The translations under genes and the position numbers were made by a program. A DNA stretch of 64,000 nt. Origin: Algimonas ampicilliniresistens (lineage in GTDB: Bacteria; Pseudomonadota; Alphaproteobacteria; Caulobacterales; Maricaulaceae). Of this stretch, positions 37,508 to 46,722 are shown piece by piece (the stretch's first letter is position 1; the number at the start of each line of letters is the position of its first letter). The notes beneath the pieces are model-generated. The model was not told the origin of the DNA. It made no database searches and worked only from the letters and a program-made list of their open reading frames with translations. Location: positions 1,054,001-1,118,000 of the forward strand of contig NZ_BSNK01000001.1 in assembly GCF_030159955.1 (NCBI RefSeq), written 5' to 3'.

Positions 37508-40500
37508 CTAGTTGCTGACCTGACCGAGAACCGTGCCGTCTTGGGCAATGATACGGCCTTGTTCGTCAACGCGGCCAATGACAGCGCCACCAGCGTCAAT
37601 CACGAACCCATCAGCACGTACCGAGAAGGAGCTTGATGAGCTTGATGTGACGACTGAGCGGCCTGTTGAGGACAACACACTGCCGGAGCTTTCAGTCCCA
37701 ACACGTGCCCGTGGCAGAACCGTTGTCGGCGATTGACGCGTCACAGTGGTGGACCCACTGGTCACAACGGTCGGAAGGATCGTCGTTGTGGTTTGAGACT
37801 GAGAGCCTGTGACCACTGTTGGTCCGCTTGTTGTGACGGTCGTTTCACGGCGCGAGCCAGCGACAATTTGCAGGCCGCGAACAACGATCTCACCAGCGCT
37901 ATTGATCACATTGCCAGTGGACGCTTCGTAGCGGCCCACGATGGCGCCGTTACCGTCGATCACCACACCGTCATCACGAACTGTGTAAGAGCGGGTGCGT
38001 GTCAGCGTTTCCGTGACAGTCCCGGTCTGTAGGCCGGTTGTGACAGTGTTTGACGTGGCACCGGTGGTGAAGCCGCTTGTGGTCGTTGTGACAGAGCCAC
38101 CAACCATGGAGCGCCAATCAACCCGAAGCTCATCAACCGTCCGGAGTGTCAGACCACCCGTAGACAGGCTGCGCGACACTTGGAACGCCTCAACAGCGGC
38201 ATAAGTCTCTTGGGTCAGACGACCGTTTAGTGCGCCCTGATAGAAGCCCAGCTCCTGCAGACGACGTTGGATTGCAGAGATAACGACTGAGTTGGCGTTC
38301 GCTTCACAAAGAACCTGACGCCACTCTGAGCGCTGAGCACTCGTTTGCGTGCGTTTCTCGACAGTACCGTATTCAGCCGGGATCTGGATGACCTCGGTCC
38401 GAGCTTGCGACGTGACACGCTGAACCTGAACAGTCTGATAGACAGCCGGGATGGCGCGTCGAGCGACACGAGCCGGGACGTCGACCACGCGGCGGGTAAC
38501 CTGGCGGGTGACAGCCGGGATGACACGCTCTTCTGTCCGAGCCTGCGAGACTAGGACACGACGCTCAACGGTACGCGTGACAGCCGGAATGGTCCGCTGT
38601 TCACTGCGGGCAGGTGTCACAATGCGGCGACGTGTTTCAGTGTTGGTGACCGCTGGGATCACGCGCTCTTCAACACGAGCCGGTGTCCGTAGAACACGGC
38701 GCGTCACAGCTTCCGTAACAGCCGGGATAGTCCGTTCGGTAACTTGCGCCGGGGCGCGAACAACGCGGCGAGTCACGGCACGCGTGACCGCTGGAATTGT
38801 CCGTTCAACAGTACGGGCTGGCGTACGAATAACGCGGCGTGTTTCCTGTGCTGTGACCGCTGGGATGACGCGTTCAGTGGCTTGTGCCGGTTGGCGAAGG
38901 ACTTGACGTTCGACAACTTTCGTTACCGCTGGGATAGTCCGTTCCGTGACCTGAGCCGGGGTCCGAACAACGCGGCGGGTCACTTGTTTCGTAACAGCCG
39001 GGATGGTCCGTTCCGTAACCTGAGCCGGTGTGCGGACGACGCGGCGGGTCACGGCCTTCGTAACAGCCGGGATAGCCCGTTCAACGGTGCGGGCCGGGGT
39101 CCGAATGACACGGCGCGTTTCGGCGCGTGTCACAGCCGGGATAACCCGTTCTGTCACCTGAGCTGGTGTTCGAAGCACACGACGTGTCTCTTGACGCGTG
39201 ACCGCTGGGATCGCGCGCTCGACGACACGAGCTGGCGTTTGGACAACGCGGCGTGTGATGGTGTTGGTCACCGCTGGGATTGTCTGTTCCGTAATCTGAG
39301 CTGGGGTCCGAACAACACGACGCTCAAGCTGCTTCGTCACAGCCGGGATGGTGCGTTCAACAGTCCGAGCAGGCGTCACGATGCGGCGCAATGTCTCCTG
39401 GCGAGTAACCGCAGGAACAGCACGCTCAACAATCTGAGCCGGTGTGCGAACCACACGTCGTTGCAGCTGCTTCGTCACGGCTGGGATAACACGCTCAACC
39501 GTACGAGCCGGGGCCGTGATAACACGACGTGTTTCCTGACGTGTGACAGCGGGGATCGGCCGTTCAACAATGCGAGCTGGTGTTTGGACAACGCGGCGTG
39601 TCAACTGTTTGGTGACAGCCGGGACCGTCCGTTCAACCGTCGCGGCTGGCGTCCGAAGAACACGGCGTGTTTCAAGACGCGTAACAGCAGGGATGAGTTG
39701 TTCAGTTACTTGAGCCGGGGTGCGGACCACGCGACGTTGCAGCTGCTTGGTCACAGCAGGAACAGCGACTTCGACGGTGCGCGCAGGTGTTACCAAGCGA
39801 CGGATCGTTTCTTCGCGTGTGACAGCTGGGATCGCGCGTTCAACGGTGCGTGCAGGCGTTCTGACGACACGGCGGCTCAGTTGTTTCGTAACAGCTGGAA
39901 CAGTCCGCTCAGTCGTCGCGGCGGGTGTAACGACAACACGACGGGTCTCAACCCGTGTGACTGCTGGGATCAACCGTTCGGTGACCTGAGCTGGCGTGCG
40001 AACAACACGACGCTGGAACTGTTTGGTCACAGCCGGGATGGTGCGTTCAACAGTCCGGGCTGGTGCAGTCAGGACGCGGCGTGTTTCCTGACGGGTAACC
40101 GCCGGAATGAGGCGCTCTGTAATCGCAGCCGGTGTGCGAACGACGCGACGTTGCAGCGGCTTAGTCACGGCCGGAACCGTAACTTCGACCGTGCGGGCAG
40201 GTTGCGCAACAATGCGACGTGTTTCGACCTTGGTGACCGCTGGGATCAGACGTTCGACCGTTTGAGCCGGTGTTCTGACAACGCGGCGTGTGATCTCTTT
40301 CGTAACAGCCGGAACAAGAACTTCGACAGTTCGCGCTGGCGTGACGAGGCAACGATACTCTTCCGTGCGTGTGATCGCTGGAATGGCCCGTTCAACAGTT
40401 TGCGCTGGGGTTCTAACGATACGACGGCTGATTTCTTTCGTCACAGCTGGGATGACACGTTCAGTGATCTGAGCCGGAGCTTGCACAACGCGGCGTGTTT

Positions 40501-43500
40501 CAACCTTGGTGACCGCTGGGATCAAACGTTCCGTGACTTGAGCCGGAGTGCGAACAACACGGCGTGTCACTTCTTTCGTGACAGCCGGGATGGTCCGTTC
40601 GACGGTCTGTGCCGGGGTGCGTACCACGCGGCGTTGTTCCAGACGCGTGACAGCCGGGATGGCCCGTTCAACAGTGCGAGCAGGTTGCGAGACAACACGA
40701 CGTGTCAGCTGTTTGGTCACGGCTGGGATTAGGCGTTCGACAGTCGTCGCAGGCTGCGCAACGACGCGGTAGGTCTCAAGCTTCGTCACGGCTGGGATCA
40801 GCCGTTCAGTCACTTGAGCCGGCGTACGAACGACGCGGCGGGTGATTTCCTTAGTCACAGCTGGAACAGCGACTTCCACGGTCCGAGCTGGCGCCCGAAC
40901 GATGCGGCGGGTCTCAAGGCGTGTGACAGCCGGGATAACCCGTTCTGTTGCTTGAGCCGGTGTCCGCAGGACGCGACGCTGAATCTGTTTCGTGACGGCA
41001 GGAACTGCAACTTCCACAGTGCGAGCAGGGGCCCGAACAACGCGGCGAGTTTCCAGACGGGTAACCGCTGGGATGGTCCGTTCAATCGCTTGAGCCGGAG
41101 CATCAACAACACGACGTGTGATTTGACGTGTTACAGCCGGTATTGCGCGTTCAGTCACCGCAGCCGGTGTTCTGACAACGCGGCGTGTGATTTCTTTGGT
41201 CACAGCCGGAATTGCGCGCTCAACAGTTTGAGCTGGGGTTCTGACAACGCGGCGTGTGATCTGTTTTGTGACAGCCGGGATAGCCACTTCAACCGTGCCT
41301 GCTGGGCGCGTGATGCGGCGAAGTTCCTCAACGCGGGTGACCGCAGGGATCGCCCGTTCGACGACGCGGGCCGGAGTTCTGACGACACGGCGTGTTTCTT
41401 GACGTGTGATAGCCGGGATAGCGCGTTCAACGGTGCGGGCAGGTTGCGAGACGACGCGACGCGTTTCTTGGCGCGTGACGGCAGGGATGGCCCGTTCGAC
41501 TGCGGTCGCAGGACGATCCACGACGCGGCGTGTGATCGCTTTGGTCACGGCTGGAATAGCGCGTTCGACCGTGCGAGCTGGCGTGACGATCCGTCGACGT
41601 GTCTCGGCGCGTGTCACGGCAGGAATGACCCGCTCGACCGTGCGAGCTGGTGTATCGATAACGCGGCGTGTCACGTTCTGAGTAACGGCCGGAATGGCCC
41701 GTTCGACTGTGCGAGCCGGTGTTGTAACGACGCGAGTGGTAATCGCGCGTGTTACCGCTGGAATGCGGCGCTCAACAACCCGGGCTTGTTCGATCAGACG
41801 TTGGATCTGAACTGTACCCACTTGCTGTGAATAATCGCCATCAGGTCCGGCATCCACTTCAACCACACGGGCCGGAGTTCTGACGCGGCGCACTTCAAGT
41901 GTTTCATAGACCGCAGGGATCGTGACTTCGCGGGTCGTCGCTGGGGCGTCAACAACGCGAGTTGTGATGTTGCGCGTGACGGCTGGAATTGTGCGTTCGA
42001 TTGCACGAGCCGGGGTAACCACAACTTGCTTTGTAATCGTTTTATACTTGGCAGGAACCAATACCAGGCAAAGGATTTCGCCCGTCTGGGTTACGATTGT
42101 TTGGGTCGACTCGACGACTTGCTGAGACACACCGTTAAAGACGGTGAACTGTCCGCGCGTATTCGTATTAACGCGACCGGTTGATCCAAGTTGTGCGGAG
42201 TTGAGGGCCTGTGTGCCAGGCTTCCACTCTTCGCGAGCCGGTTCGATCAGAACACGCTCGGACCGCGTTTCATAAACGGCCGGAATGACTTCAATGTCGG
42301 TGCGCGCTGGCGACACGACGATAGTTTCTGTCACGTCACGATAAGATGGTGGCACAACTTCAAAGACAGTCGACGCCTCTTGAACCAGGACACGATCTGT
42401 GACGGTTTCATATTCAGCAGGAATAACCTGCAGCAGCGTGGCGCCGTCACGACGGATATATGTCTCGTTGACGGTTTCATATTCTGCCTCGACCACGTCG
42501 TAGGCGACGGTTTCAGGCTGAACGATGACGGTTTCAGTTACAGTCTCATACTGAGCCGGAACGGTTACCAATTCGACGGTCGCGTCTTGAATAACGACAG
42601 TTTCTTGGACCGTTGTGAAGGTCGCAGGCTGGACAACCAACTCTGTTGAAGCTTCTTGAACGACGATCGTTTCTGTGAAGTCTTCATAGACGGCGGGTAC
42701 GTTGACGAACTCGACGGTCGCGTCTTGGACAACAACTGTCTCCGTAACTTCGCGGAAGGACGCGGGTGTAGAGACGAGTTCTGTAGAGGCGGGCCTTACG
42801 ATGATCGTTTCGGTCACCGTTTCAAACTCTGCTGGAACCGTTGTCAATTCTGTTGAGGCTTCTTGAACCACAACTGTTTCTGAGACTGTGTCAAATTCGG
42901 CTGGAACAACAACCAGTTCGGTGGTTGCAGGCTGAACCACAACAGTTTCTGTGTAGGTTTCGAACTGAGCCGGAACGGTCTCGAAATTCACGGAGGCAGG
43001 CTGAACGACAACGGTCTCTGTGACAGTCTCAAAGACGGGCGGGACAGTGACAAGCTCGAAAGAGGCGTCCTGAACGGTGATGACTTCCGTTACAGTCTCA
43101 TACTGAGCCGCAACCGATACCAATTCGACGGTTGCGTCTTGTACAACGACCGTTTCTGTGACGTCTCGGAAAGAGGCGGGTTGGACGACCAACTCGCTAG
43201 AGGCTTCCTGCACGACGACTTGATATTCTTCCGTCTCAAAAACAGCGGGAATGGTTTCAAATGCGACAGAGGCAGGCTGAACCACGACAGTTTCTGTTAC
43301 CGTTTCAAACACGGGCGGGACAGTCACAAGCTCGTTTGAAGCTTCTTGGACGACGACTTGATATTCTTCCGTCTCATAGACCGCTGGAATGGTCTCAAAC
43401 GTTACGGAAGCAGGTTGAACGACAACCACTTCAGAGACGGTTTCAAACACAGCAGGAACGGTAACAAGTTCAGTCGACGCATCTTGAATGACGACGACTT

Positions 43501-46060
43501 CTTCGACGGTTTCGAACACGGCTGGTGTTGAGACATATTCAACGCCAGCAGGCTGGACGATAACAGTCTCAGTGACGGTCTCGAACTCAGCAGGTTGCGT
43601 CACAAACTCGACGGACGCTTCTTGAACGACGACCTGATATTCTTCAGTCTCGTAAACTGCTGGGACAGATGTATATTCAACCGTTGCAGGCTGAACGACC
43701 ACAACTTCTGTGACGGTCTCGAAGACAGGCGGAACCGTGACGAGTTCTGTTGACGCATCTTGGATGACGACAACCTCTTCGACTGTGTCGAATACAGCCG
43801 GGACCGTGACATATTCAACAGTAGCGGGCTGGACGAGAACGGTCTCTGTCACGGTCTCATAAACGGCTGGAATTGAGTCGAACTCAATAGAGGCTTCTTG
43901 AACAACCAGAGTTTCGGTGACGGTTTCGAAGACTGCGGGAACCGACGTGTATTCGACGCCGGCAGGCTGAACGACTACGACTTCTGTTACGGTCTCGAAG
44001 ACAGGCGGTACGGTTACAAGCTCAGTCGAGGCTTCCTGAATGACGATTGTGTCTTGAATGGTCTCGAATACAGCTGGGACAACTTCGTAAGAGACAGTTG
44101 CGGGCTGTACAATGACAGTCTCATTCACAGTTTCGAACACGGCAGGCGTAGAGACAAGCTCAGTCGAGGCCTCTTGGACGACAACTGTATAGTCTTGGTC
44201 TTCATAAACCGCTGGAATTGTATCGAATTCAACGGAGGCCGCTTGAACGACAATGGTTTCGTTTACGGTCTCAAAAACGGGCGGGACAGTAACCAATTCA
44301 GTCGAAGCATCCTGGACAACAACGACTTCCTCGACATTCTCGAAGGTCGCAGGTGTTGAGACATACTCAATGGTTGCCGGTTGGACGATGACAGTTTCTG
44401 TAACGGTCTCAAACTCGGCGGGTTGTGTCACGAATTCAACGGACGCTTCCTGAACAACAACGGTTTGCGTGATGGTTTCGAAAGCGGCAGGAACCGTTGT
44501 ATATTCGACGCCAGCAGGCTGTACGACGACAGTTTCAGTAACAGTCTCGAACACAGGTGGGACGGTCACAAGTTCAGTCGAGGCTTCTTGAACCACGACT
44601 TGATACTCTTCGCTTTCATAGACAGCCGGTGTGCTGACATATTCAATCGTAGCCGGTTGAACGACGACGGTTTCCGTGACGGCCTCAAATGCAGCCGGAA
44701 CGGATGTGAGCTCTGTGGACGCTTCCTGAACCACGATCGTTTCAGTAACAGTGTCGAATTGAGCCGGAACGACGTCATACTCAACGCCTGCAGGCTGAAC
44801 GACAACGGTTTCAGTCACAGTTTCGAAGGCGGCAGGCGCGACGGTTAATTCGCTTGAGGCTTCCTGAACCACGATGGTCTGAGTGTAATCCTCAAACACA
44901 GCGGGGGTCGTGGCATATTCGATTGTGGCCGGTTGAACGACGACAGTTTCGGTCACTGTTTCAAAAGCCGCAGGCGTGACCACGAGTTGATTGGACGCCG
45001 CTTGAGTAACGACCGTCTCGGTCACATCAGCAAAGACGGCAGGAACAACGACAAGCTCAACGTCAGCATCTTGCACGACAACAGTTTCAGTCACGGCTTC
45101 GAACGCAGCCGGTGTAACGACAAGCTCGGTCGAGGCGTCTTGGATGACAATATTATCTGTGACTGTATCGAACTCTGCTGGAATAACCGCAAACTCGACG
45201 CTGGCGGGTTGAACGACGACTGTTTCGGTTACGTCCTCAAAGACGGCAGGAACGGTGACGAGTTCAGCTAGAGCGGGCGTGACAACGAGCGTTTCCGTGA
45301 CGTTCTCAAAGACGGCAGGCGTAACGACAAGTTCGTTCGTAGCCTGTTGGACGACGACCGTTTCACTGACGGTCTCAAATATGGCCGGCACTGTAACGAG
45401 TTCGGTCGAGGCTTCTTGTACGACGATCGTTTCGGTGACCGTGTCGAATTCAGCAGGGACAACTGTATACTCGACGCTAGCGGGCTGAATGACGACGGTT
45501 TCGGAAACATCTTCAAATGCAGCGGGGGTGACGATCAGCTGTGACGCTGCGTCTTGCACGACGACGTTTTCAGTAATTGTTTCAAAGACAGGCGGAACCG
45601 CGACCAGCTCAGTTGAGGCCTGCTGCACGACGACTGTTTCAGTAAAGTCTTCATATACGGCAGGGGTGGCCGCGTAAGTAACAGTTTCGGGTCTGACGAG
45701 GATTGTCTCTGTCCTAGTCTCGTAGATTGGGGGAATCGTAACGAGCTGGGTAGAGGCTTCCTGAATAACGACCGTTTCAGTTACATCGCGGAATTGGGGT
45801 TCCTGTTCGATGACCAGGTCGAAACTTTCCTGTTGGACAAGAACCTGTTCGGAGACTGTCTCAATTTGAGCCGGTATCTTACGGATTTCCTCTGAGGCTT
45901 GGCGCAGGACCACTTGCTCAGTAGAAATTTCATATTGAGGCGGGACGATCACGCGGGCGAAGCATTCGCCTGGAAGCGGATTACCCGGCGGAAGTTCTTG
46001 CGCGATAGTCGGCGCAGCGAGCACAGCAGCACTAGCCGCCATCAACAAAGTTCTTTTCAT
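37508..46060 (-). CDS. Giant exported 23-residue-repeat protein with peptidoglycan-binding-like domain
   Basis: A 2850-residue protein of unknown function. Order: signal peptide 1-20; a cap with PGEC (C33); block 1, residues 39-1281, with 54 tandem 23-residue repeats rich in Glu, Val and Thr and without lysine between K61 and K1280; a hinge 1282-1334; block 2, 1335-2582, with 53 repeats of the same length rich in Arg; a peptidoglycan-binding-like domain about 2585-2650 (ISAIQRRLQELGFYQGALNG); a Thr/Ser-rich tail holding two VR-x-DG-x-VID modules. The repeats look like short beta-strands joined by Pro-Ala turns. Only four cysteines occur (33, 1331, 1904, 2585). GGGGGTC precedes ATG 46060; an open frame to 46126 exists. 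I recall short versions of such repeats in envelope proteins, but not this length. A periplasmic or wall-bound fibre is the best guess. Confidence 0.85.
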   Translation of the reverse strand: MKRTLLMAASAAVLAAPTIAQELPPGNPLPGECFARVIVPPQYEISTEQVVLRQASEEIRKIPAQIETVSEQVLVQQESFDLVIEQEPQFRDVTETVVIQEASTQLVTIPPIYETRTETILVRPETVTYAATPAVYEDFTETVVVQQASTELVAVPPVFETITENVVVQDAASQLIVTPAAFEDVSETVVIQPASVEYTVVPAEFDTVTETIVVQEASTELVTVPAIFETVSETVVVQQATNELVVTPAVFENVTETLVVTPALAELVTVPAVFEDVTETVVVQPASVEFAVIPAEFDTVTDNIVIQDASTELVVTPAAFEAVTETVVVQDADVELVVVPAVFADVTETVVTQAASNQLVVTPAAFETVTETVVVQPATIEYATTPAVFEDYTQTIVVQEASSELTVAPAAFETVTETVVVQPAGVEYDVVPAQFDTVTETIVVQEASTELTSVPAAFEAVTETVVVQPATIEYVSTPAVYESEEYQVVVQEASTELVTVPPVFETVTETVVVQPAGVEYTTVPAAFETITQTVVVQEASVEFVTQPAEFETVTETVIVQPATIEYVSTPATFENVEEVVVVQDASTELVTVPPVFETVNETIVVQAASVEFDTIPAVYEDQDYTVVVQEASTELVSTPAVFETVNETVIVQPATVSYEVVPAVFETIQDTIVIQEASTELVTVPPVFETVTEVVVVQPAGVEYTSVPAVFETVTETLVVQEASIEFDSIPAVYETVTETVLVQPATVEYVTVPAVFDTVEEVVVIQDASTELVTVPPVFETVTEVVVVQPATVEYTSVPAVYETEEYQVVVQEASVEFVTQPAEFETVTETVIVQPAGVEYVSTPAVFETVEEVVVIQDASTELVTVPAVFETVSEVVVVQPASVTFETIPAVYETEEYQVVVQEASNELVTVPPVFETVTETVVVQPASVAFETIPAVFETEEYQVVVQEASSELVVQPASFRDVTETVVVQDATVELVSVAAQYETVTEVITVQDASFELVTVPPVFETVTETVVVQPASVNFETVPAQFETYTETVVVQPATTELVVVPAEFDTVSETVVVQEASTELTTVPAEFETVTETIIVRPASTELVSTPASFREVTETVVVQDATVEFVNVPAVYEDFTETIVVQEASTELVVQPATFTTVQETVVIQDATVELVTVPAQYETVTETVIVQPETVAYDVVEAEYETVNETYIRRDGATLLQVIPAEYETVTDRVLVQEASTVFEVVPPSYRDVTETIVVSPARTDIEVIPAVYETRSERVLIEPAREEWKPGTQALNSAQLGSTGRVNTNTRGQFTVFNGVSQQVVESTQTIVTQTGEILCLVLVPAKYKTITKQVVVTPARAIERTIPAVTRNITTRVVDAPATTREVTIPAVYETLEVRRVRTPARVVEVDAGPDGDYSQQVGTVQIQRLIEQARVVERRIPAVTRAITTRVVTTPARTVERAIPAVTQNVTRRVIDTPARTVERVIPAVTRAETRRRIVTPARTVERAIPAVTKAITRRVVDRPATAVERAIPAVTRQETRRVVSQPARTVERAIPAITRQETRRVVRTPARVVERAIPAVTRVEELRRITRPAGTVEVAIPAVTKQITRRVVRTPAQTVERAIPAVTKEITRRVVRTPAAVTERAIPAVTRQITRRVVDAPAQAIERTIPAVTRLETRRVVRAPARTVEVAVPAVTKQIQRRVLRTPAQATERVIPAVTRLETRRIVRAPARTVEVAVPAVTKEITRRVVRTPAQVTERLIPAVTKLETYRVVAQPATTVERLIPAVTKQLTRRVVSQPARTVERAIPAVTRLEQRRVVRTPAQTVERTIPAVTKEVTRRVVRTPAQVTERLIPAVTKVETRRVVQAPAQITERVIPAVTKEISRRIVRTPAQTVERAIPAITRTEEYRCLVTPARTVEVLVPAVTKEITRRVVRTPAQTVERLIPAVTKVETRRIVAQPARTVEVTVPAVTKPLQRRVVRTPAAITERLIPAVTRQETRRVLTAPARTVERTIPAVTKQFQRRVVRTPAQVTERLIPAVTRVETRRVVVTPAATTERTVPAVTKQLSRRVVRTPARTVERAIPAVTREETIRRLVTPARTVEVAVPAVTKQLQRRVVRTPAQVTEQLIPAVTRLETRRVLRTPAATVERTVPAVTKQLTRRVVQTPARIVERPIPAVTRQETRRVITAPARTVERVIPAVTKQLQRRVVRTPAQIVERAVPAVTRQETLRRIVTPARTVERTIPAVTKQLERRVVRTPAQITEQTIPAVTNTITRRVVQTPARVVERAIPAVTRQETRRVLRTPAQVTERVIPAVTRAETRRVIRTPARTVERAIPAVTKAVTRRVVRTPAQVTERTIPAVTKQVTRRVVRTPAQVTERTIPAVTKVVERQVLRQPAQATERVIPAVTAQETRRVIRTPARTVERTIPAVTRAVTRRVVRAPAQVTERTIPAVTEAVTRRVLRTPARVEERVIPAVTNTETRRRIVTPARSEQRTIPAVTRTVERRVLVSQARTEERVIPAVTRQVTRRVVDVPARVARRAIPAVYQTVQVQRVTSQARTEVIQIPAEYGTVEKRTQTSAQRSEWRQVLCEANANSVVISAIQRRLQELGFYQGALNGRLTQETYAAVEAFQVSRSLSTGGLTLRTVDELRVDWRSMVGGSVTTTTSGFTTGATSNTVTTGLQTGTVTETLTRTRSYTVRDDGVVIDGNGAIVGRYEASTGNVINSAGEIVVRGLQIVAGSRRETTVTTSGPTVVTGSQSQTTTTILPTVVTSGSTTVTRQSPTTVLPRARVGTESSGSVLSSTGRSVVTSSSSSSFSVRADGFVIDAGGAVIGRVDEQGRIIAQDGTVLGQVSN
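37511..37627 (-). repeat. C-terminal VRxDGxVID module, copy 2
   Basis: Residues 2812-2850: FSVRADGFVIDAGGAVIGR then GRIIAQDGTVLG. It matches copy 1 at 2692-2728 in the pattern VR-x-DG-x-VID-x-x-G-x-x-x-GR. It forms the extreme C-terminus of the giant protein. Confidence 0.75.
37874..37987 (-). repeat. C-terminal VRxDGxVID module, copy 1
   Basis: Residues about 2692-2729: YTVRDDGVVIDGNGAIVGR then GNVINSAGEIVVRG. It is separated from copy 2 by a Thr/Ser-rich linker of about 80 residues. Confidence 0.75.
38111..38308 (-). other. Peptidoglycan-binding-like domain in the giant protein
   Basis: Residues about 2585-2650 have the PG_binding_1 pattern: VISAIQRRLQELGFYQGALNG followed by LTQETYAAVEAFQVSRSL. 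This fold usually binds cell-wall peptides. It supports an envelope location, with the C-terminal end near peptidoglycan (inference). Confidence 0.7.
38315..42058 (-). repeat. Basic repeat block: 53 tandem 23-residue units
   Basis: Units of 69 bases, of the type IPAVTK then QETRRVVRTPAQ then VTERA. Every unit I counted is 23 residues long except unit 3, which carries a 29-residue insertion. Arg/Lys occupy positions 6, 10, 11, 14 and often 18 and 22. Codons vary between units, so the DNA repeats are diverged while the protein pattern is kept. The last unit has Trp at position 21 (W2580). Confidence 0.95.
42218..45946 (-). repeat. Acidic repeat block: 54 tandem 23-residue units
   Basis: Units of 69 bases, of the type VPAVF then ETVTETVVVQ then PASVEYVT. 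All are 23 residues apart from one extra residue around unit 3. Glu/Asp occupy positions 6, 10, 20 and often 16. Many units alternate between a QPA and a QEA or QDA form, giving a loose 46-residue period. The last unit has Trp at position 21 (W1279), as in the basic block. Confidence 0.95.
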
Positions 46061-46722
46061 TTTCAAGACCCCCAAGTCTCCAGTAACAATCGCCGAAAAG
46101 GCGTAGATTTGTGGACGCTTACCCAATGGCTGGAAACATGGCTAGGCGTTAATGCGATGGTAGCAAGCTGTTCATCTGGCATTCAATCATTGACGGGTGT
46201 GAGGGGAAAAGGTTCCAAAACAGACCCTTTTAGCGCGTGTCCGTCTTCGCCCATCTCGTTGTAAATCCATCCATGATAAGAAAGTTGATCGTGCTAGGCC
46301 CCTCTGACCCTTGTAATTCTTAGTTTTTGTGGCGTTCGGCTTATTAAGAGCATGTTTCGGGCCAGTTCATCGAAAAAGCTGCTGTGATCTGCTGTGAAGG
46401 GCTCATAAACGTCTCCACGTCACCTCTACCTCAAAATCTACGAACTGCGTGATTGTCGGTTTTCACGCGGGATGTCCGGTCGAAGCGAGTTTTAGTTTTG
46501 AGTTTCTCACCGCAGGCGAATTTCTGTCTACGTGATTCGTTTAAGACATGAGAGCGGCTGATTGCAGGACTGTCGGGACGCGATATAAGAACGACTGACG
46601 TCATTGAATGGGCGAGCCTGCGTGCCCTGATGCAACCGATGGTTCTCGTCCTTGCTTTTGCACGATAAGCTAGTCCAGTGACGCGCCATACAAATCTATT
46701 CTGATATGTGATTGAGGTGATT
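46061..46722. other. Long intergenic region between divergent giant-protein and M16 genes
   Basis: 662 bases without a convincing gene. Short open frames here have no coding character. It must hold two divergent promoters. I see a nine-base direct repeat CTGCTGTGA at 46379-46387 and 46389-46397, one helical turn apart, which could be a regulator site. No tRNA-like or strong hairpin structure was recognised. Confidence 0.5.

Follow-up and report, generated by a model that had tools for sequence, protein, structure and literature searches.

Matched repeat arms in a giant protein of Algimonas ampicilliniresistens suggest a 'protein stem'

The giant gene and its surroundings

The window analyzed here, a 64,000-nucleotide stretch of contig NZ_BSNK01000001.1 of Algimonas ampicilliniresistens, carries on its minus strand an open frame at positions 37508-46126. 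Translation from the ATG at 46060 yields a protein of 2850 amino acids, hereafter the giant, with zero internal stops; the whole gene, stop included, occupies 37508-46060 and has orthologues in the genus and the family. All parts named below lie on the same strand. The protein opens with a stretch that looks signal-like by eye (residues 1-21, 45998-46060) and is conserved in same-genus orthologues, residues ~1-84 being 76-86% identical across 13 same-genus matches. Cys33 (45962-45964) marks the start of arm 1, which consists of 54 acidic 23-residue units (residues 40-1282, 42215-45943) and ends with the motif EEWKPG. A 53-residue tip linker (residues 1283-1335, 42056-42214), with a conserved QFTVFNGVS and Cys1331, leads into arm 2, where 54 basic 23-residue units (residues 1336-2583, 38312-42055) end with EWRQV, followed by Cys2585 (38306-38308). 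Cys33 and Cys2585, which would stand opposite each other in the hairpin proposed below, are present in 20/20 giants, and the cysteine homologous to Cys33 is invariant in 20 short relatives. Beyond the arms lies a PG_binding_1 domain (PF01471, residues 2594-2642, 38135-38281), which scores 27.7 bits, above the gathering cutoff of 23. A Thr/Ser/Gly-rich C-terminal tail (37511-38134) completes the protein; its end weakly resembles the beta-flower family PF21785, below cutoff (E 0.49).

An earlier note on this DNA had reported a frame unbroken over 8.5 kb, with a signal peptide before the repeats and a peptidoglycan-binding-like domain after them, and these observations are confirmed. It had tallied 54 plus 53 repeats, with one extra residue and a 29-residue insertion. 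Our scoring segmentation placed 54 units on either side of the middle cysteine: the first number stands, as does the single extra residue (Q86), and the second becomes 54, since the supposed insertion (residues 1405-1433, in arm 2) is one 23-residue unit plus 6 extra residues. The first block is strongly acidic (net charge about -197) and the second strongly basic (about +150). Within the protein, units share a mean identity of 52% in arm 1 and 58% in arm 2, more than chance. Unit similarity along 38312-45943 is higher at even than at odd distances and highest at distance 4, giving superperiods of 2 and 4. An antisense frame of 662 amino acids (38744-40732, plus strand) overlies arm 2; long antisense frames also occur in relatives, and this one is probably a by-product of codon composition.

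Neither Pfam nor NCBIfam holds a repeat family matching the arms, and PDB sequence and profile matches were confined to the wall-binding domain, with none to the arms. Pfam likewise returned no ATPase family at E <= 1. A literature search, with subscription papers mostly outside its scope, found no description of the giant or its architecture. The suggestion that no protein of such design had been described is thus uncontradicted by these sources, although the design itself proved common to a family with short members.

Matches to the giant were found in 19/19 genomes of the genus, its own included, some of which hold merely a short paralogue or a fragment; stop-to-stop frames of 2766-3049 amino acids were read in nine other genus genomes. 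Across the family, the hinge fragment was matched (E <= 1e-6) in 37/60 genomes and had no match in 23/60, both counted among the matches listed, and an open frame of at least 2500 amino acids was present in at least 16/60 family genomes, from seven genera. Two single-contig nanopore chromosomes, those of Algimonas porphyrae LMG 26424 (3,169,281 bases; locus L020) and Fretibacter rubidus JCM 15585 (3,450,490 bases; locus L093), each encode an intact giant with 54 units in both arms (54:54). We therefore rejected an assembly artefact, for which the earlier note had proposed a long-read test: similar giants exist in seven genera, two such giants sit in complete nanopore genomes, and the A. ampicilliniresistens giant and 19 others are single open frames.

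The usual neighbours of the gene are rplU on one side and a divergent M16 peptidase gene on the other. Of the loci examined, 31/34 contained rplU; several of them come from one genome, and some are cut by contig ends. In the 15 kb around the giant of F. rubidus, unlike in most other species, neither of these genes occurs.

Comparison of the giant with three orthologues bore out the earlier proposal of strong selection on repeat geometry while codons vary: fourfold-degenerate sites were 29-37% identical, and codon positions 1 and 2 were 74-86% identical. Between species, unit identity was 57-78% at equal index versus 49-65% at other indices, and just 8-23 of the 54 units were most similar to the unit of equal index. 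By these comparisons, units are partly homogenised while their number stays.

Arms of matched length

The A. ampicilliniresistens genome also encodes a short relative of 428 amino acids, built as C-arm-W-linker-C-arm-W-C with 4 + 4 units. Such 4:4 relatives are ~300-450 amino acids long, and many carry a PG_binding_1 or OmpA domain. In 20 of them, the invariant columns were G8, C10, W105, C148, P153, W241, and C246, which are mostly arm anchors; a domain scan of the same number found PG_binding_1 in 11/20 and OmpA in 1/20, seven of the 20 lacking their C-terminus in the scan. The giant carries the corresponding anchors C33, W1279, C1331, W2580, and C2585, and its 54:54 arms follow the matched-arm plan of the family.

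Overall, arms were equal in unit number in 71/74 proteins, from 3:3 to 54:54 and in several phyla, with the unit numbers 3, 4, 5, 6, 8, 9, 10, 11, 12, 22, 46, and 54 all represented. The distance from cysteine to tryptophan was taken in 73 proteins. In 39, the two arms agreed within 2 residues with zero correction (pairs of 72/71, 95-96/93-94, 115/115, 118/117-118, and 141/140). Another eight, with 8-22 units, had arms 6-12 residues apart, caused by a small insert in arm 2; four had larger arm 2 inserts (two 10:10, and two 12:12 with an OmpA domain), and two were four-arm proteins (3:3:3:3). These last 14 proteins were counted by eye. With inserts set aside, the 20 giants comprised 15 of 54:54 (the count of L100 corrected from 55 to 54) and three of 46:46, together with L021 at 54:50 and L027 at 52:48; the 74th protein, L050, was 42:41. 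All three unequal proteins come from draft metagenome-assembled genomes, other metagenome-assembled genomes gave equal arms, and the isolate giants were equal-armed in 4/4 cases (L020, L093, L022 from Litorimonas cladophorae, and L098 from Hellea balneolensis).

Nine of 82 sequences had been left out before arm counting (L070, L085, L088, L091, L092, L106, L176, L188, and L189) as partial, duplicate, YfbK-like, or without anchors. Also outside the count are giant loci whose frame is split in two (L028/L049) or which hold one complete arm only (L052, L058, L060, L062, L063, and L065). With a blind Viterbi repeat counter, the arms came out equal in only 30/74 proteins, with errors of at least one unit and an arm-count correlation of r 0.998; the counter was dropped as too noisy, and anchor-to-anchor lengths and counts by eye were used instead. 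In many comparisons of 54- with 46-unit giants, the gaps fell close to the middle of the arm, a placement that fits parallel and antiparallel order alike. Opposite net arm charge was found in 44/74 proteins and is not universal.

Several variations accompany this plan. Most giants (L020-L027, L050, L093-L098, L101, and L102) carry 76-147 additional residues behind unit 2 of arm 1, an insert similar to the short C-terminal repeats; it is absent from the A. ampicilliniresistens giant and from L019, L099, and L100. In the 12:12 Bacteroidota proteins L171 and L172, arm 2 is interrupted behind unit 7 by a domain that looks OmpA-like by eye, and a PG_binding-like domain follows the arms. A further Bacteroidota protein, L174 (1251 amino acids), was counted by eye as 22:22 and carries an OmpA-like domain at its C-terminus; here too both arms are lengthened, outside the giant's family. 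YfbK-like VWA proteins in the genus and family (L029, L030, L031, L032, L033, and L106) place a few of the same acidic and basic 23-residue units before the VWA domain, several of them in the form of short hairpins with DG/NG turns. We had considered mid-size frames of 957-1087 amino acids as paralogues of the giant, and rejected them: L030 is a VWA/YfbK protein with a few units, and the others look alike by eye, the domains having been scanned in L030 alone.

Charge covariation between the arms

To locate contacts between arms in the 31 relatives of the 4:4 type, we added up charge covariance over each of 253 register lines, both antiparallel and parallel. The lowest was the antiparallel line i+j=96, counted from the two cysteines (rank 1/253, z -4.0, reached in 0/500 row shuffles), and the next was 97. 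The 17 alphaproteobacterial sequences by themselves again ranked s=96 first (z -3.5); the 14 others gave z -1.74 at 96 and -2.37 at 97, with rank 1 at neither. A held-out set of 59 loci, 9 of them unparsed, left 50, from which we dropped 6 repeats of earlier proteins, 2 proteins with an extra residue, and 3 four-arm proteins; the locus parser favours lengths near multiples of 23, so that this set does not prove equal arms independently. Among its 39 remaining short relatives s=96 was again extreme (z -4.05, next line -2.4, 0/300 shuffles). The 16 held-out gammaproteobacterial sequences alone reached z -4.13 at s=96, and the 23 from the giant's own order gave z -1.42, not extreme, with 1/300 row shuffles as low.

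Four-arm relatives carry 3-unit arms, two of the first type and two of the second, a scheme that fits 22/25 of those read. Arm pairs 1-4 and 2-3 were lowest at the predicted s=73 (z -2.96 and -3.21), while pairs 1-2, 3-4, and 1-3 had no lowest line there and pair 2-4 reached -2.01 without being lowest; L217 and L265 are the same gene, and the effective number of proteins is 19. Going by this covariation, the four-arm relatives pair as nested arms.

For the giants, the mean charge at each position was subtracted per protein, and the correlation between arms was then calculated over 2402 registers. Pooling the 17/20 giants with equal counts, the full antiparallel register, in which unit m of the first arm meets unit n+1-m of the second, ranked 1/2402 (r -0.239, z -10, next -0.106); these 17 are orthologues of shared ancestry and not independent. 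The pairing of m with n+1-m had been predicted beforehand. The in-unit sum a+b=17, carried over unchanged from the short relatives, gave no signal in giants; a+b=18 was found by scanning, which makes its one-residue offset post hoc. We rejected a parallel arrangement of the arms, as none of the parallel registers tested alongside compares. Per-unit net-charge profiles did not distinguish parallel from antiparallel order.

Tested as single proteins, 17/20 giants placed the full antiparallel register first, the A. ampicilliniresistens giant included (1/2402). The exceptions were L021 (rank 3), L019 (rank 16), and L100 (rank 141), the last being lowest at +24, which is the full antiparallel register after its count correction. 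In L050, for which antiparallel shifts alone were compared, the lowest was the full register counted from the tip (r -0.297), and the one-unit mismatch of its arms leaves the covariation unaffected. L021 and L027 keep offset 0 at the tip end and shift to -4 at the base end; the 4 units left unmatched mid-arm may be a bulge or a collapsed assembly. The informative units are 1-18 and 28-54 of arm 1, so that the register is shown near both ends and not mid-arm: units 19-36 vary too little, and in that stretch the A. ampicilliniresistens giant scores lower two units off.

Between arm 1 position 5 and arm 2 position 13, like charges occurred in 0/894 pairs, against a mean of 142 and a minimum of 118 in 2000 shuffles, and 85/95 basic residues at arm 1 position 5 face an acid. 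In the A. ampicilliniresistens giant, R stands at units 3, 41, 47, and 53 of arm 1 with D opposite each (chance about 1.6e-5). Positions of such swaps are often common to species. Rare ones include units 19 and 38 of L020, each of which has its match; the R at unit 53 of L020 has A opposite. Covarying positions within the unit were 5-13, 9-9, and 13-5 (sum 18), 3-14 and 14-3 (sum 17), and 18-22 and 21-19 (sum 40). The change in sum looks like a one-residue slide of the register from the 12- to the 7-residue strands, in the manner of a beta-bulge.

Structure prediction gave strands for both proteins modelled. AlphaFold built the short member from 12- and 7-residue strands (pLDDT 68, pTM 0.46), whose breaks coincide in both arms under s=96 by arithmetic, and made strands of the giant's hinge (pLDDT 56, pTM 0.20); both models are weak. 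Foldseek returned zero matches at E <= 0.001. Among weaker alignments, the short member matched long beta-hairpins, with 4/5 within one residue of the register, and the hinge model showed the predicted register in only 1/3.

A possible wall-anchored ribbon

Since charges covary along a single antiparallel register and block lengths change together, the two blocks most likely pair with each other. A continuous residue-to-residue antiparallel register over two strand-like arms implies, in turn, a two-stranded beta ribbon, and we consider it probable that the giant is such a ribbon, anchored to the wall as a hairpin of two paired arms. After export through its putative signal peptide, the acidic arm 1 would fold back at the conserved tip linker and pair residue by residue with the basic arm 2, unit m opposite unit 55-m, with the 12-residue strands at a+b=18 and the 7-residue strands slid by one residue, at a+b=40; the P-A dipeptides of both arms would then face each other. 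The product would be a very long ribbon with the 53-residue linker as its tip and its base closed beside Cys33 and Cys2585, where we infer a disulfide. PG_binding_1, going by the habits of its family, would fix the base to peptidoglycan. A beta strand rises ~0.33 nm per residue. The number of unit pairs would set the length, at ~7.6 nm per pair when fully extended: 54 pairs would span up to ~0.4 micrometre instead of 25 nm, and 1242 residues ~410 nm if straight, or less if the ribbon coils. Such a length-defined, wall-anchored fibre might serve as a tether or spacer, whether within the periplasm, following the envelope, or on the surface, and this is the least certain part of the proposal. To our knowledge, the giant would be the longest beta-hairpin, if so folded.

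Other arrangements of the blocks deserve weighing. The earlier note had envisaged, as an illustration, each block as its own beta-solenoid of ~25 nm; the two would then only lie side by side, and 23-residue units with two predicted strands each, together with the period-2 and period-4 similarity of units, would suit stacked coils. Independent solenoids, however, need no identical coil number, yet the arms match in 71/74 proteins and shift in length together across relatives, and the covariation follows one residue-exact antiparallel line between the arms to which no parallel register compares. We set the solenoid aside on this inter-arm register and regard it as very improbable, so that the earlier interpretation is only partly supported. 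A looser association, in which the blocks are disordered polyampholytes attracting each other without register, draws on the net charges of about -197 and +150, but sits so poorly with residue-exact register, compensated charge swaps, strands predicted throughout the arms, and arms that match despite charges of the same sign, as in L171 (-13 and -17), that we give it almost no credence.

Covariation is blind to whether partners belong to one chain or two, and matched arms equally suit a symmetric dimer; the partner of arm 1 could instead be arm 2 of a second molecule, which would produce dimers or long polymers. Against this, some YfbK-like proteins (L029, L030, L031, and L106) join basic and acidic units by tight DG or NG turns, by eye within about one residue of the register of the short relatives, which suits pairing within a chain, and the nested pairing of four-arm relatives comes naturally in one chain. 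Pairing between molecules therefore seems unlikely to us, and the hairpin within one chain remains the reading we prefer.

Comparison with known proteins helps to place this ribbon. Pore-forming proteins in the PDB, such as lysenin, CDTb, and iota toxin, have long beta-hairpin stems, which are much shorter than the arms of the giant and form barrels on assembly; we saw neither a sequence relation to them nor pore evidence in the giant. The short 4:4 relatives share the C-arm-W-linker-C-arm-W-C anatomy of the giant, in many cases followed by a wall-binding domain, and differ in having 4 (3-22) unit pairs versus 42-54 and in an opposite charge that is weaker or absent. In SMC proteins the chain folds back and two stretches pair antiparallel. 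SMC/Rad50 arms are described as long and length-constrained, with a hinge at the tip (PMC5344682). The giant likewise has two paired stretches of matched length, judged by covariation and length only. Unlike the alpha-helical coiled coil and ATPase heads of SMC, its arms are predicted beta strands made of tandem 23-residue units, flanked by a signal-like start and a wall-binding domain. SMC arms are the nearest analogy, and Periscope Proteins the nearest functional idea. The latter are bacterial surface rods whose length depends on tandem repeat number (PMC8201768). Their repeats are folded domains that vary in number; in the giant the repeats of the two halves pair, and the number is nearly fixed between species, judged from one genome per species.

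Taken together, we lean towards a new class of repeat protein, the 'protein stem', in which repeats of the first half pair one-to-one, in reverse order, with those of the second half through compensating charge swaps, and of which the giant would be a wall-anchored ribbon of up to ~0.4 micrometre. If true, a repeat architecture would be readable from sequence as in RNA, with partners, register, and compensating changes all within a single protein. Matched repeat numbers in the gene would spell out the length of the ribbon and make it a genetically encoded fibre of set length. How two arms of ~1242 residues come into the correct register while being exported, and what keeps their repeat numbers equal as repeats turn over, are questions that follow. 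The same reading also suggests a shape for the short envelope proteins, an unnamed family that spans several phyla.
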